Shown here one piece after another: positions 2,773 to 24,806 of a stretch of DNA of 64,000 nt; positions within the stretch are counted from its first letter, which is position 1; each line of letters starts with the position of its first letter. A program made the position numbers and the translations under genes. The notes beneath the pieces were generated by a model, which made no database searches, was not told the origin of the DNA, and saw only the letters and a program-made list of their open reading frames with translations. The stretch comes from an uncultured Pseudomonadales bacterium. GTDB lineage: Bacteria; Pseudomonadota; Gammaproteobacteria; Pseudomonadales; UBA7434. Where the stretch lies: positions 304,300 to 368,299 of the forward strand of contig CALSRU010000004.1 in NCBI GenBank assembly GCA_943788835.1, given 5' to 3'.

Positions 2773-4866
2773 TTGGCAGATCAAGCAATTCAACGATTCG
2801 GAAGCGCAGCACAAGCCAATATGGGCGTGCCGATACTGCTGTTGACGCTGCTCGGCATGATGATTTTGCCGATTCCTCCTTTTCTCCTCGATACTCTGTT
2901 TTCGTTCAATATTGCACTCTCAATTGTGGTTCTACTGGTTTCGGTGTACGCCATGCGGCCACTCGATTTTGCAGTTTTCCCCACCATATTACTGGTCGCA
3001 ACCTTGCTCCGACTTGCGCTCAACGTCGCATCTACGCGGGTGGTGTTGCTCGAAGGCCATGCCGGTGGTGATGCCGCGGGTAAAGTGATCCAAGCCTTTG
3101 GCGAAGTAGTGGTAGGTGGCAACTATGCTGTCGGCTTAGTGGTGTTCTTCATTTTGGTGATTATCAATTTCGTGGTGGTCACCAAAGGTGCTGGTCGTAT
3201 CTCAGAGGTGAGTGCCCGTTTTACATTGGACGCGATGCCCGGCAAGCAAATGGCCATTGATGCTGACCTTAACGCAGGCACACTGACCCAAGAAGAGGCC
3301 AAAGAGCGGCGTCAAGAAATTAGCAGTGAGGCTGACTTTTACGGTGCTATGGACGGTGCGAGCAAGTTTGTGCGCGGTGATGCCGTGGCCGGTATTTTGA
3401 TTCTTATCATCAACATACTGGGCGGTTTAGGAATTGGTATGGTTCAGCACGACCTAGACTTCCAGCGAGCAGTGGAGGTGTATACGCTGCTGACTATAGG
3501 TGATGGCCTCGTTGCGCAAGTGCCATCGTTGTTGCTGTCAACTGCTGCTGCGATCATGGTCACTCGAGTTAACAGTGAAAGCGATATGCGCGAGCAAGTC
3601 TTTACCCAAATGTTTAGCTCACCAAAGGCGCTTACCGTTGCGGCTATGGTGTTGGCAATCATGGGGTTGATTCCTGGAATGCCGCACGTTGCATTTTTAT
3701 CTCTAGCTGCGGCTTGCAGCGCAGGTGCCTTCTACGTTCAGCGCTCCGCGATGCAAAAGATAGCTTTAGTTCAGGAGAGTGAGCGTGAAAAGGGAGCGCA
3801 ACTAGCGCAGGAGGCTCAAACGCCTAATAGTGAGCTAGGTTGGGACGATGTTGCACCCGTCGATATGATTGGTCTTGAGGTAGGCTATCGGCTTATTCCT
3901 ATGGTTGATAAAAATCAGTCGGGCGAGCTTTTGGGCCGGATAAAAGGCATTCGTAAAAAACTATCTCAAGAAATTGGATTTTTAGTTCCGGCTGTGCACA
4001 TTCGCGATAATTTAGAGTTGCAGCCCAGTAGTTATCGGATTTCGCTGATGGGTGTCATGGTTGGCGAATCCGAGGTTCATCCTGATCGGCATTTAGCCAT
4101 TAACCCGGGGCAGGTGTTTGGCAGTTTAGAGGGCATAGCTGCGAAGGATCCAGCATTTGGCTTGGATGCAGTATGGATTGATGATGCCATCAAAGACCAT
4201 GCTCAGACACTGGGCTATACAGTGGTTGATGCCAGTACCGTCATTGCGACACATCTTAATCAATTGTTACAGAAACATGTTCATGAGCTGCTAGGCCACG
4301 AAGAAGCGCAGCAGATGATTGATCGTTTGGCTCGTCATTCACCCAAGCTTGCTGAGGTGTTGGTGCCTGATACCGTAAGTATGGGGGTATTGCTGCGCGT
4401 GCTGAAGAACTTATTGCAAGAACAGGTTCCAGTTAGAGATTTCCGCACTATATCTGAAGCGTTAGTGGCTAATATGGCAGTTAATCAAGATCCGACTCGA
4501 TTGGCTGAAGCAGTTCGTGTGGCTTTATCACGATCGATTGTGCAGGAGATTTTTGGTAGCGAAACGAATTTACCTGTCATTACGCTGGCCATGTCGATGG
4601 AGCAAATGTTGATGAAATCAATGGCGCAGCAAGCAGCTGGTGAGCTTACGCTTGAGCCTGGGCTTGCTGAACAGTTGCAAAGTTCTCTCAGCGCTGCAGC
4701 GCGAGATCAAGAGGCTAAAGGCCATGTTGCCGTATTACTTGTAGCTGCCACTTTGCGCCCCGTTATGGCGCGATTAGCAAGGTTTAGTAGCCATCCGCTT
4801 TCGGTTTTATCATACAACGAAATACCTGACGATAAACAAATCACCATAGAGAACACGGTGGGTTAA
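2773..4866 (+). CDS. flhA: Flagellar export gate protein FlhA
   Basis: The main export-gate protein of the flagellar type III system. The 697 residues include an N-terminal membrane domain of about eight segments (roughly residues 20-330), the FHIPEP-type cytoplasmic loop ('ISEVSARFTLDAMPGKQMAIDADLNAG' region) and a C-terminal cytoplasmic domain that docks chaperone-substrate complexes. Length agrees with Pseudomonas FlhA (about 707). The start is TTG at 2773; no good Shine-Dalgarno is seen, and an in-frame ATG occurs 16 codons later just before 'GVPILLLTLLG', so the exact start is uncertain. It is followed 48 bases later by flhF. Confidence 0.97.
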   Translation: MADQAIQRFGSAAQANMGVPILLLTLLGMMILPIPPFLLDTLFSFNIALSIVVLLVSVYAMRPLDFAVFPTILLVATLLRLALNVASTRVVLLEGHAGGDAAGKVIQAFGEVVVGGNYAVGLVVFFILVIINFVVVTKGAGRISEVSARFTLDAMPGKQMAIDADLNAGTLTQEEAKERRQEISSEADFYGAMDGASKFVRGDAVAGILILIINILGGLGIGMVQHDLDFQRAVEVYTLLTIGDGLVAQVPSLLLSTAAAIMVTRVNSESDMREQVFTQMFSSPKALTVAAMVLAIMGLIPGMPHVAFLSLAAACSAGAFYVQRSAMQKIALVQESEREKGAQLAQEAQTPNSELGWDDVAPVDMIGLEVGYRLIPMVDKNQSGELLGRIKGIRKKLSQEIGFLVPAVHIRDNLELQPSSYRISLMGVMVGESEVHPDRHLAINPGQVFGSLEGIAAKDPAFGLDAVWIDDAIKDHAQTLGYTVVDASTVIATHLNQLLQKHVHELLGHEEAQQMIDRLARHSPKLAEVLVPDTVSMGVLLRVLKNLLQEQVPVRDFRTISEALVANMAVNQDPTRLAEAVRVALSRSIVQEIFGSETNLPVITLAMSMEQMLMKSMAQQAAGELTLEPGLAEQLQSSLSAAARDQEAKGHVAVLLVAATLRPVMARLARFSSHPLSVLSYNEIPDDKQITIENTVG

Positions 4867-4874
4867 ATTTGTAA

Positions 4875-4895
4875 CGCTTAATGATTCGTTAAGCG
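4875..4895 (+). other. Perfect stem-loop between flhA and flhF
   Basis: CGCTTAA (4875-4881) and TTAAGCG (4889-4895) form a perfect 7-base-pair stem with a 7-base loop. No T run follows, so it is not a typical terminator. It lies just upstream of the flhF ribosome-binding site (GGAG near 4904) and could be an RNA processing or translation-control element. Confidence 0.45.
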
Positions 4896-4914
4896 CTTAT
4901 TACGGAGTAGCGCC

Positions 4915-6495
4915 ATGCAAAAACATACAGCTAACAGAGTGCAACGGTTTGTAGCTCCCGATATGGGTAGGGCGCTGAAGATGCTGACCAATGAACTCGG
5001 TGGAGAGGCCATTCTGTTAGCTTCACGGCGGGTAGACAGCGGCGTTGAGGTCGTTGGTTTGCCACCTGGTGCTGCCACTAACAATATAGATATGAGTCAG
5101 TTGTATGGTGAACGACGCAGGAATGAGCGTCGTGCAAATGGGCGTCGCGCCGCTGATGAAGTGGCGCTAGAGTTGCCGATTGAGCCGTTATCAGAGTTTG
5201 CTGCAGAATCGGCTGATGGCTCGAGCGATCGTTCTCATGAGGACTCTAAAGCACTGCGCCATAATGCTCAGTCGCGCCGGTCTTTTGGCGATACGCTAGC
5301 TCGTTTGCGCACTGATTATCCATCCTTGTTAGGTGATTCCGCAGGCAGTCCGGCCAAGGCTGATGATCTGGATGCTGATGAAATGCATCATTCATCAACG
5401 GCTTTGGATTCCGGTATTGGAATCAGGGATACGGCTACCGCACTGGCCGAGCAGATCCACCACTTGCCGCATGAGTCTCCACGAGTCAAAAGTGAGAGCC
5501 TGCCTGAGCCTGATGTTGCATCAGCATTAGAACAGCTGACTTCAGTTGATTCGGCCCGTCAAGAAGAAAGTATGCCCATAGATGCAATTCAGGTTGAATT
5601 GAAACAGTTAAAGACGCTGCTTGCTGACTCTTTAGCGCGTAATCATGGTGAGAGCGTTCTCCCTCAACCGGCACAATACATTGTCATGCAGCGATTGTTG
5701 CAAATGGGCTTTTCGCAAACGGTGATTACCGCATTATTACAAAATGTAAGCGGTAGTAATGTCGAGGCACTTTGGTCGGCTTGCCTTGAGCAACTTAATT
5801 TAGTGCTGCCGCTGCTGGAAAAAGAAGTGATAGACGGCGGTGGTCTATTTGCTCTAGTCGGCCCCCTAGGTTCAGGTAAAAGCTCTGTGATGGCGATGTT
5901 GTTGGGGCGCTTTATTGAGCAAGATAAAGCAGATGAGGTGGCTGTCATAAGTTTGGAAGGTGCTCGCTCAGAGGTTATATCGCAGCTTACCTCATTAGCT
6001 GGCATTACTTATTTGCCGGTGGATGCTGATTTTTCTCTCACTCAAAGAATTAACCAGTGCTCACGCTTTCGAACGGTATTGATCGACACGGCTAATGGTC
6101 TGGATGAGGAAAAACCGTTGCACGGGTTGTTTGATGAGGCGCATGCTGAGAATATTAAAATTAGCGAACTACTTGTTCTACCGGCTACAGGAGAACAGCG
6201 CTATCTACGCCATGTTATTCAGCAATATAATAGACCGCACACAGTGGGTTGCGTACTGACGTTTTACGAGCAAGCACAATCAGTTGGCGAAATTATGAGT
6301 TTACTACTGAGCGAGCGCATGCAGGCCGCCTATGTAGCAAAAGGAACGCTTTTGCCAGAGCACTTAACGGTCCCGAGTAAGCAGCAGATGCTCCAGAAGT
6401 TATCATTTGAGCAAGCAGATGAGATGGCATTTGAAGTGCTGGCGCCTACCCTCAATATAAAAGCAGGCGACCGGGTGCCGTCGTTGAGTGTTTAG
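4915..6495 (+). CDS. flhF: FlhF-like flagellar placement protein with degenerate G domain
   Basis: FlhF is an SRP-type GTPase that sets the position and number of polar flagella. The position between flhA and fleN and the N-terminal region ('RVQRFVAPDMGRALKMLTNELGGEAILLASRRV', residues about 8-40) identify it. A long variable middle follows, then an NG-type domain from about residue 240. The P-loop GPLGSGKSS (316-324) is intact. Other signature motifs are not: the DTYRIGA segment is absent, DTAG reads D391-T-A-N394, and the guanine-specificity TKLD reads T449-F-Y-E452. The fold is probably kept while GTP binding or hydrolysis is altered or lost. GGAG precedes the ATG. The open frame is uninterrupted. 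Confidence 0.88.
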   Translation: MQKHTANRVQRFVAPDMGRALKMLTNELGGEAILLASRRVDSGVEVVGLPPGAATNNIDMSQLYGERRRNERRANGRRAADEVALELPIEPLSEFAAESADGSSDRSHEDSKALRHNAQSRRSFGDTLARLRTDYPSLLGDSAGSPAKADDLDADEMHHSSTALDSGIGIRDTATALAEQIHHLPHESPRVKSESLPEPDVASALEQLTSVDSARQEESMPIDAIQVELKQLKTLLADSLARNHGESVLPQPAQYIVMQRLLQMGFSQTVITALLQNVSGSNVEALWSACLEQLNLVLPLLEKEVIDGGGLFALVGPLGSGKSSVMAMLLGRFIEQDKADEVAVISLEGARSEVISQLTSLAGITYLPVDADFSLTQRINQCSRFRTVLIDTANGLDEEKPLHGLFDEAHAENIKISELLVLPATGEQRYLRHVIQQYNRPHTVGCVLTFYEQAQSVGEIMSLLLSERMQAAYVAKGTLLPEHLTVPSKQQMLQKLSFEQADEMAFEVLAPTLNIKAGDRVPSLSV

Positions 6496-10119: not shown

Positions 10120-11110
10120 ATGCGCTATAAACGAATTCAGTCGCGGCTAAGTGGCAACACGCTGATAGCAGCTAGCGGGCAAACCGGCCACGATCGCTGG
10201 TTGGTATCCTATGCCGATTTTATGACATTATTAATGGCATTTTTTTGTTGTTATGTATTCGATCTCCCAAGTATCGGAGCAAAAATACCGCGTTTTATCG
10301 GCGACATTTTCTGAGGCTTTCAATGCGCCGATCGACGAGCAAAACATTTTTTCAGAGGGGCAGCCGCAACACTCTCATACGAATACGCCAATTGATTTAG
10401 ACGGGCGTGCGCTTGAGGATCGGCCCGGTAATGATGCCAACGAAGTTCCTGAGACATTCACTCGAATTGCTGAACAGTTGGAGCAGAGCTTTCAGTCGCT
10501 GATTGAGAAAGATTTGATTGTTGTGGCAGGCGATGAGCGGTGGTTGCAAATTGAACTTCCGTCGGAGGTTCTTTTTAGTAGCGGTGGTGTACAAATGAGT
10601 GAAGCGGCGGCCGCGATTATTGATGATATTGCGATGACTTTAATCAACCACAACAACGTGATTCGGGTTGAGGGGTTTACGGACGATGTTCCTATCAATA
10701 CTGTGCAGTTCGAATCCAATTGGGAGTTGTCTACCGCGCGCGCTGCAGCGGTGGTTAGGCAGTTGGTCAATCGAGGTATTGAGCCGGAGCGCTTAGCCGC
10801 GATCGGTTATGGGGAGTTTCAGCCAGCCCAGTCTAACTCGACTGAGGCTGGACGCAGTAAAAATCGGCGTATTGTGTTGATGGTGTCTACGCGCAATCGT
10901 CTGCGGCCTGATGCAGCTCAAGTCGACGATCTGATTATCGCTCCCACGCCTAGTATTGAATCGGCAGCCGAGGATGTGCCTCTGGTGCGCGGTTTGGAGC
11001 GCAGCGCGATGGATGAGGCGCGTGCATGGCTGTCTGATCGTTATCCTGAGGCGGCCCTGATTGAGCCAAGCGGCGAAACCGAGGCATCGGCAGAGTCAAC
11101 AAGCCAATGA
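10120..11110 (+). CDS. motD: Flagellar stator protein MotD (MotB family), frameshifted
   Basis: Peptidoglycan-anchoring stator subunit. The first frame gives 'DRWLVSYADFMTLLMAFF' with the proton-binding Asp33, then runs into 'CCYVFDLPS' and stops at 10314. The second frame resumes as 'MYSISQVSEQKYRVLS' and runs to 11110 with an OmpA-like domain ('VEGFTDDVPINTVQFESNWELSTARAAAVVRQL', 'GYGEFQPAQSNSTEAGRSKNRRI'). Removing one T from the seven-T run at 10240-10246 joins them as MAFFVVMYS, the family sequence, giving 329 residues. The domain after the break is well conserved, so the break is either a sequencing error, a recent mutation, or a slippage site. The N terminus has a weak ribosome-binding site. 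Confidence 0.9.
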
Positions 11111-13939: not shown

Positions 13940-14087
13940 ACTGCGCCGCCAAAGTAGCGGTATTTGTTAAACCTAATTCTCACACACACCGACACGTCTT
14001 CCAGGGTGCCAAAGCGGGTTGATAGCAACGCGTTGCGGTTGGATTGATGGGGTGAGTGGAGGCCTAACCCTAAAAAAGGAAAATATT

Positions 14088-22168: not shown

Positions 22169-24806
22169 TTGTTTGATACACACATCCGTAACCCATTTCG
22201 TCTTTTATTGAGCTATTGCTGGCGCTCGCCTACCAAGTACTGTATCCGGCTAACTACTAACATCGCTGCGTTGTTATTGGCTTTGTGTGTGGTGATGCCT
22301 GCTGCTGCTCAACGTGACGCTGTGATTAAAGATATTCGCATTGAAGGCCTGCAGCGTGTGGCCGCCGAAAGCGTGTTTGCCGTGCTTCCGCTTGATGTGG
22401 GTGACCGGCTTACTGAGTCAGCTGTGGCTAATACTGTGCGTGCTGTGTTTGGTACGGGCAACTTCCAAAATGTGGAGTTGGGTATCGATCAAGGTGTGCT
22501 AGTGGTCTTGGTTGAGGAACGTCCCTCGATTAGTGCTATTAGCATTGAGGGTAACAAGGCTATTCAAACAGAATCATTGCTTGATGGCTTGCGCAATCAA
22601 GGCATGGCCGAGGGGCGGGTCTTTCAGCGTGCAACGCTTGAGGGGATGCGCAAAGAGTTAGCACGACAGTACGGTGCCCAGGGTCGTTATGATGCCCAGG
22701 TGACCACCGATGTGATAGCAGAGCCTCGTAATCGCGTGGCAGTAGATATTGTGATTGACGAAGGCAAGCCCGCAAAAATTAAAAAAATTAACATTGTCGG
22801 TAACAAACATTACAGCGACGAACAGCTCTTAGAATTGATGGAGCTCAAGGACCGCGGTTTTTTTTACTAAGCTGGGCAGTAAAAATAAGTATGCACGCGA
22901 AAAACTCTCGGGCGATTTAGAAAATATTGAAGACTATTACCGCGATCGTGGTTATATACAATTTCGCATTGCATCAGCCAATGTTTCAGTGGGGCCGAGT
23001 AAAGATTCTGTTTATATTAGTATCACAGTCGATGAAGGCGAGCGCTATACCGTGGCTAATATCGATTTGGCTGGAGAAGTTAAGGAGCAGGCAGCATTGC
23101 TTGAACGCGCTTATTTAGTTCGTGGTGGCCAAGTTTTTTCGCAGGGTCTGGTGACTGCCACCGAAGATTTGATGAAGCGCGTGATGGGTAATCAGGGTTA
23201 TGCGTTTGCCGAAATAAAAAGTATCCCTGAAGTGAATGAAGACGAAAAAACCGTCGATATTACTTTTTTGGTCGAGCCGGGTAAGCGTACCTACGTACGG
23301 CGAGTTGAGTTTTCTGGCAATAGCAAAACTGCCGACTACGTGTTGCGTCGAGAGATGCGTCAACTGGAAGGCGCTATAGCGTCGACAGATCTCATCGAGC
23401 GCTCGCGCGTGCGTTTGGAGCGCCTCGGGTTCTTTGATAACGTAAAAGTGGAGACCCCAGAAGTTGCCGGCAGTGACGATCTAATTGACGCAAAGTTTGT
23501 CGTTGATGAGCAATCGTTCGGCAGCGTTTCGGCCTCGCTTGGTTATTCCCAAGACGTAGGACTTATTTTTGGTGCTGATTTCCAGCAGAACAATTTTATG
23601 GGTACGGGCAGACAGGTCAATGTGCAGGCTAATCGCAGCAGCTATCGAACAAGTTATAGCCTCTCTTATGTCAACCCCTATTACACACCTGAAGGTGTCA
23701 GCCGAGGGTTTACGGTATTTGCCCGTGAAACCGATTTTGATGCGATAAATGTGACCAGTTTTAGTACCAACAGCTGGGGCGGATCGGTTATTTTCGGTTA
23801 TCCGTTAAGTGAAACTCAGTCGATTCGTTTCAGTATTGGGTATACATCTACTACAATCGAAACGGGCTTTGCCGCTGTTCAGGAAATTAAAGCGTCGCCA
23901 TTGGCGGAGGTGTCGTTAGAGCCCGGCATTGCCTACAAAGTGTCAACAGCAATTGATACATCGCAAATATATACGCCCGGCGTATCTCCCGAACTTGTGC
24001 TCACCAATGAAGAGGAATTTTTGTTGTCAGAGCCAGGTTTTGTCGATGTTAATGGCGATGACTTTGGCGTGGTGACTCTGAGCAGTAGTTGGCGTGAATC
24101 GACATTGAACCGGGGTATTTTTCCAACAGCGGGGCACGCCAATTCAGTGCAGCTCGAGGCCACTGTGCCAGGCAGTGAAATCGATTATTTCAAATTGTCT
24201 TACAATGGCCAGTATTATAAGCCGCTAAATCGTCATTTTACGCTTCGAGTTCGAGGTGAGCTGGGTTACGGAAGAGGTTACGGTGGCGTTGATGAGTTGC
24301 CGTTTTTTGAGAACTACTTTACCGGCGGTATCGGTTCGGTGCGCGGATTTGAAAGTAATACCCTTGGCCCTAAGAGTACACCGGCTCGCGTATACAACAC
24401 GGGGCAGGTGTTGGTTTCGCCAACCGACGGGCTTAGGACTTATCTTGCAGATGATAATGGTAACTTGTTGAGTTCGCCTGTTGATCTAGACCCCGACCCC
24501 TTTGGCGGAAACATCTTAGCGGAGGGCAGTGTTGAGCTGATTTTACCTACCCCTTTTGCCAAAGGCAGTCGTGCGGTGCGTACTGTGGCATTTTATGATA
24601 TCGGTAATGTATTTAACGATTCCTGTCGATCTACTCAGCTGAACTGTTCTAATTTTGAATGGTCTCAGTTGCGCTCTTCCGTGGGACTTTCACTAACTTG
24701 GCTCTCAGGTTTTGGGCCGCTGTCATTTAGTTTTGGCTTCCCAATAGAAGAGCAGCCTGATGACAAAACAGAATTCTTCCAGTTTACTCTGGGCGGAGCA
24801 TTTTAA
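22169..24806 (+). CDS. bamA: Outer membrane assembly factor BamA, frameshifted
   Basis: Central beta-barrel insertase of the BAM complex; an essential protein. The first frame (22169-22870) has a signal sequence ('IAALLLALCVVMPAAAQ') and POTRA 1, 2 and part of 3, ending 'ELKDRGFFY' and stop. The downstream frame continues 'TKLGSKNKYAREKLSGDLENI' through POTRA 3-5 and the barrel with 'GSVRGFESNTLGP', ending with a terminal Phe. Removing one T from the eight-T run at 22858-22865 gives DRGFF-TKLGS, as in the family, and 878 residues. Because the gene is essential and both halves are conserved, an error in the sequence or a slippage mechanism is more likely than a pseudogene. The start (TTG 22169) is uncertain. 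Confidence 0.93.

Follow-up and report, generated by a model that had tools for sequence, protein, structure and literature searches.

The bamA locus

The window, by which we mean the whole 64,000-nucleotide stretch of DNA that was analysed, holds the customary block of genes, which we take, from the translations of their open reading frames, to be frr-uppS-cdsA-dxr-rseP-bamA-skp-lpxD-fabZ-lpxA-lpxB-rnhB-dnaE. Only bamA was tested against a protein family. Inside this gene, whose product is an outer-membrane assembly protein, the reading frame is interrupted at a run of eight T, which was read directly from the sequence and is also present in the run listing (Table 1). The first frame, for which a TTG start codon was listed mechanically, ends in ELKDRGFFY and meets the stop codon TAA at 22868–22870. 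From 22866 onward the alternative frame, with the sequence TKLGSKNKYAREKL, continues without interruption to a stop at 24804–24806.

Table 1. Features of the bamA locus and of other parts of the window
Feature	Position	Strand	Basis
MotB/MotD-like gene (MotB_plug and OmpA domains), broken by one extra T	10120–11110	+	Ends inferred from the sequence and the sister ORF
Seven-T run in the MotB-like gene (six T in the sister species)	10240–10246	+	Run listing and sister comparison
t44 RNA (RF00127)	13961–14068	+	Rfam match, 62.8 bits
bamA, first piece (N-terminal region, POTRA 1–2 and start of POTRA 3)	22169–22870	+	ORF, POTRA match, TIGR03303 positions 2–180 (189.5 bits)
Eight-T run (seven T in the sister species G007)	22858–22865	+	Sequence and sister comparison
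bamA, second piece, in the alternative frame (remainder of POTRA 3, more POTRA repeats, barrel)	22866–24806	+	TIGR03303 positions 183–741 (584.8 bits)

A BamA of the TIGR03303 family (an equivalog model of 741 positions) is expected to occupy a single uninterrupted frame, which is not what this record contains. The second piece scores above the curated cut-off of 297.15 bits, whereas the first piece alone scores below it. Because the two match adjoining parts of the model, they are one BamA, broken where the third POTRA repeat begins. The break was placed there by a POTRA_1 match at 203–232 of the first piece together with the model position. The earlier note, made from the sequence alone, had described bamA as split at the eight-T run, with one frame ending in DRGFFY and a stop within POTRA 3 and the other open to the end of the barrel. 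Sequence and open reading frames bear out both statements, the family match extending to the last position of the model. Runs of this length are not rare, since 22 coding-strand T8 runs, this one included, occur in the sampled aligned coding sequence; the unusual feature is the frame break and not the run.

The MotB-like gene, with seven T where the sister species has six, is the second clear frame break in the window. In total, the window differs from the sister sequence by 73 indels, 52 of which are not multiples of three. A protein scan of the window flagged four sister ORFs and four of its own, and the only clear gene breaks among them were those in bamA and in the motB-like gene. Apart from the t44 RNA, nothing in the window reached the gathering score of an Rfam family, and no tRNA was found.

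Comparison with relatives and copy number

Over 221 bases, 93% identity is shared with the nearest genome, that of the sister species G007, in which the run has seven T and is in frame. When 12 genomes of the genus were searched with the first BamA piece, 10 matched (this genome and nine others); two of the 11 other genomes, G001 and G004, gave no bamA match in this search. The search also returned a weak second match in G009 (L136, 19.6 bits).

The comparison across the site covered nine relatives from the genus. The frame is open across the site in all nine and the frameshift is found in none. A run of seven T or more is present in one of them, where it is a T7 in frame, and is absent from the other eight. 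Since the run is missing from eight relatives, it is, as judged from these alignments, not a conserved slippery site. In a search for other DNA of this species, an exact 26-base pattern had no matches among viral contigs, as expected for a chromosomal gene.

Relative to G007, dN/dS falls from 0.113 ahead of the break (229 codons) to 0.013 behind it (473 codons). The low value behind the break shows that this part of the gene was under selection until recently, and it rules out an old pseudogene.

When the whole genome (98.97% complete) was searched with the Omp85 family, the only match besides BamA was weak and fell short of the cut-off; in this single search no second BamA was found. We rejected the weak match (G000:C4 5451–5927) as a second BamA, as it is the end of a frame-broken ShlB-type transporter. 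This two-partner secretion transporter (G000:C4, approximately 4109–5927; L002) is split in two frames here and open in the sister species, and its break lies outside any long run. The earlier note had also allowed for bamA being a pseudogene beside a second, intact copy; that alternative is unsupported, this broken transporter being the one further Omp85 match that the search returned.

Single-base insertions across the genome

In all, 1.166 Mb (42% of this genome) was set against 1.177 Mb of G007; the aligned part came to 621 kb, of which about 525 kb is coding. The forward scan took sister ORFs of at least 100 aa; 860 were matched and 28 were flagged as frame-broken in this genome, and the flagged junctions were sorted by eye. 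This reading left 14 genes with 16 one-base insertions in this genome and one possible deletion (L117 against L162, about 70% identity), which was counted separately. By simple arithmetic, a division of 16 to 1 would arise with a chance of approximately 3 in 10,000 under equal odds, and the insertions occur about once every 33 kb of the coding sequence that aligned. Five of them fall in T runs of six or more, and the remaining 11 lie outside runs of that length.

The broken genes are bamA, the motB-like gene and those for a TatD-family nuclease (tatD-family), the ShlB-type transporter, a multihaem cytochrome, an ABC ATPase (two insertions), an AMP-binding enzyme, a TonB-dependent receptor, a phosphopantetheinyl transferase, Wzi (two insertions), polysaccharide export, a MaoC-domain protein and a pterin dehydratase, as well as a 107-codon ORF. 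For several, including TatD, MotB-like, AMP-binding, ABC ATPase, phosphopantetheinyl transferase, Wzi and pterin dehydratase, the family names come from Pfam searches. Three insertions are located in the opening 3.3 kb of contig C2, over the polysaccharide export and Wzi genes (L158, G000:C2 2091–3275), and a single ABC ATPase gene holds two more, no farther than 0.7 kb from the end of C16 (L171, G000:C16 15881–15918). An earlier, smaller sample had given five breaks in 251 kb aligned; when it was re-read, the pterin dehydratase and the 107-codon ORF, first judged spurious, were counted.

In the reverse scan, 897 of this genome's own ORFs had a match and 14 places were flagged, two or three of which are this genome's breaks viewed from the other side. 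None of the 14 flags marks a clear break in G007, two being uncertain (own_304300|497318 and |299526); one row from a repeat region (L170|9531) was too long to align.

Thirteen of the 28 forward flags were left out of the gene count. These were read as 5′ extensions (L084|223, L101, two of L110 and, by low identity, L102), antisense or intergenic ORFs (L022, L039|1496 and L073), a repeat array (L029, judged by its listed entry) and ORFs that are short or divergent (L078|17538, L106|7588, L106|16725 and L116). In the first three of the last group, set aside as short or non-coding, bases are missing from this genome rather than extra; if they were real genes, the tally would become 16 to 4, with odds of about 0.01 (arithmetic).

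Before the rows were read, the raw clean one-base gaps in a loose coding mask numbered 21 extra and 16 missing and looked unbiased; outside the mask there were 56 extra and 57 missing. In the missing-base rows within the mask, the gap lies approximately 40 codons or less from either end of a stop-to-stop ORF, or else the frame stays open (one such row printed no context). Among the extra-base rows, 13 sit at least 40 codons inside an ORF on both sides, and it is these 13, together with the motB-like, L097 and C18 insertions from the protein scan, that make up the 16. A gene which we presume to be NqrD-like, its Pfam match being Rnf-Nqr, has A8 against A7 in the sister species at about codon 6 (G000:C4, approximately 503435; own_304300 199136). 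It was left uncounted, since translation from a TTG codon could avoid the break.

Interpretation of the frame break

These comparisons allow us to propose, with high confidence, that the bamA break is an artefact, the eighth T having entered the consensus through an error of sequencing or assembly. We arrive at this reading because, in the portion of the assembly compared, single extra bases also break other conserved genes, and no clear break was seen in the nearest species. The open frames of the nine relatives, the low dN/dS behind the break and the finding of only one BamA count for it as well. At the insertion rate given above, a break in bamA needs no special cause. The 14 genes broken in the 621 kb aligned, as sorted by eye, are unrelated to one another, and the bias is directional, whether taken as 16 to 1 or, with the three set-aside flags, as 16 to 4. 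The real chromosome would then most likely have a T7 run and a single ordinary, unbroken bamA lying between rseP and skp, and the additional base would be one of the assembly's single-base insertion errors. An insertion-biased consensus would leave extra bases in unrelated genes, in and out of runs, some of them near contig ends, and the clusters seen there are such as thin coverage might give. The position of bamA, far inside an 879 kb contig, is a point against an error. An insertion-prone long-read consensus would presumably fit this assembly.

According to one report, homopolymer indels in Nanopore consensus sequences often cause frameshift errors in gene calling (PMC9262707). The likeness lies in a one-base run-length error that breaks a conserved gene, with several such errors per assembly. 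The present case differs in that 11 of the 16 insertions lie outside runs of at least six, which would make it a wider type of error.

It is also conceivable, though in our judgement highly improbable, that the eight T are real and that RNA polymerase drops one U in a share of the transcripts, so that enough BamA is made; none of the observations demands it. A study of the E. coli enzyme describes about 10% deletion on a T8 reporter, no deletion on the poly(A) runs examined and no activity below seven T (PMC6260861); the bamA run has eight. Conservation of bamA behind the break is consistent with such rescue, and Blochmannia is believed to tolerate frameshifts located in runs (PMC3017870). In this genome, the interior breaks in runs of at least six comprise five on T and none on A on the coding strand, despite A runs being commoner (among runs of at least seven bases in the sampled coding sequence, 114 are of T and 160 of A). 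The odds of all five being T are about 0.01, or 0.05 with the NqrD-like gene. This skew counts for slippage because E. coli RNA polymerase deletes on T runs (PMC6260861). It may be a slight hint of slippage tolerance, noticed after the fact and with bamA included, and is possibly due to chance. The broader proposal that the T-run breaks (bamA, motB-like, tatD-family and two more) are all real and are kept by RNA polymerase dropping a U likewise seems to us very doubtful. The 11 insertions outside runs of six or more cannot be rescued by slippage on runs, and at the bamA site the run itself is lacking in eight relatives and in frame in the ninth. In E. coli, moreover, under 1% of transcription deletions began in uninterrupted runs, according to another study (PMC5574713), and coding runs of nine or more are few in this genome, with one of T and seven of A in the counted coding sequence. 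Compared with the poly(A)/poly(T) frameshifts of Buchnera and Blochmannia, which may be corrected by transcriptional slippage (PMC3017870), the bamA case is alike in that a conserved gene carries a single A/T-run indel with no sign of decay after the break. It is unlike them in that some frameshifts are kept between species there and this one occurs in one of the 10 genomes compared; coding tracts of at least nine are numerous there, whereas here the run is one of eight and most of the other breaks lie outside runs. A literature search combining bamA, frameshift and slippage returned nothing that looked relevant. The earlier note had left two branches standing, a base error or slippage; the former gains from the other insertions and from the relatives, while the latter is poorly served by an unconserved run and by a majority of insertions outside runs of six or more.

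That the extra T arose by genuine recent mutation, or comes from a minority allele of the sampled population caught by the consensus, we regard as very unlikely. The sequence behind the break is undamaged, and new +1 changes arise commonly in runs. However, BamA is essential in E. coli, and a recent mutation would leave 16 insertions against one possible deletion across ordinary genes unexplained. Scarcely credible, in turn, is the idea that the two pieces are made separately or are joined by a ribosomal +1 shift at UUU UAC. The second frame is indeed long and intact, but on direct reading this piece has no signal-like start of its own. The prfB frameshift site has a stop codon at the place where here UUU UUU is followed by UAC, which is not a stop. 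Direct reading also indicates that slipping by −1 on U UUU UUU would put the ribosome into the wrong frame, a shift of +1 being needed, and the frameshift site is retained in none of the nine relatives.

Implications

As far as sequence comparison can tell, the split of bamA is most likely not a real feature of this bacterium. Should the T8 run be genuine, the supply of an essential protein would hinge on slippage by the polymerase, and this in a bacterium without the look of an endosymbiont, which would be notable. If the T-run breaks as a group were real, an uncultured bacterium of this non-endosymbiont-like kind would tolerate frameshifts on coding-strand runs of T, and not of A, and one of the affected genes would encode an essential outer-membrane protein. 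A consensus error being the preferred explanation, the finding stands chiefly as a warning that, in this genome record, broken genes, even essential ones, need to be checked against relatives before they are given a biological reading.
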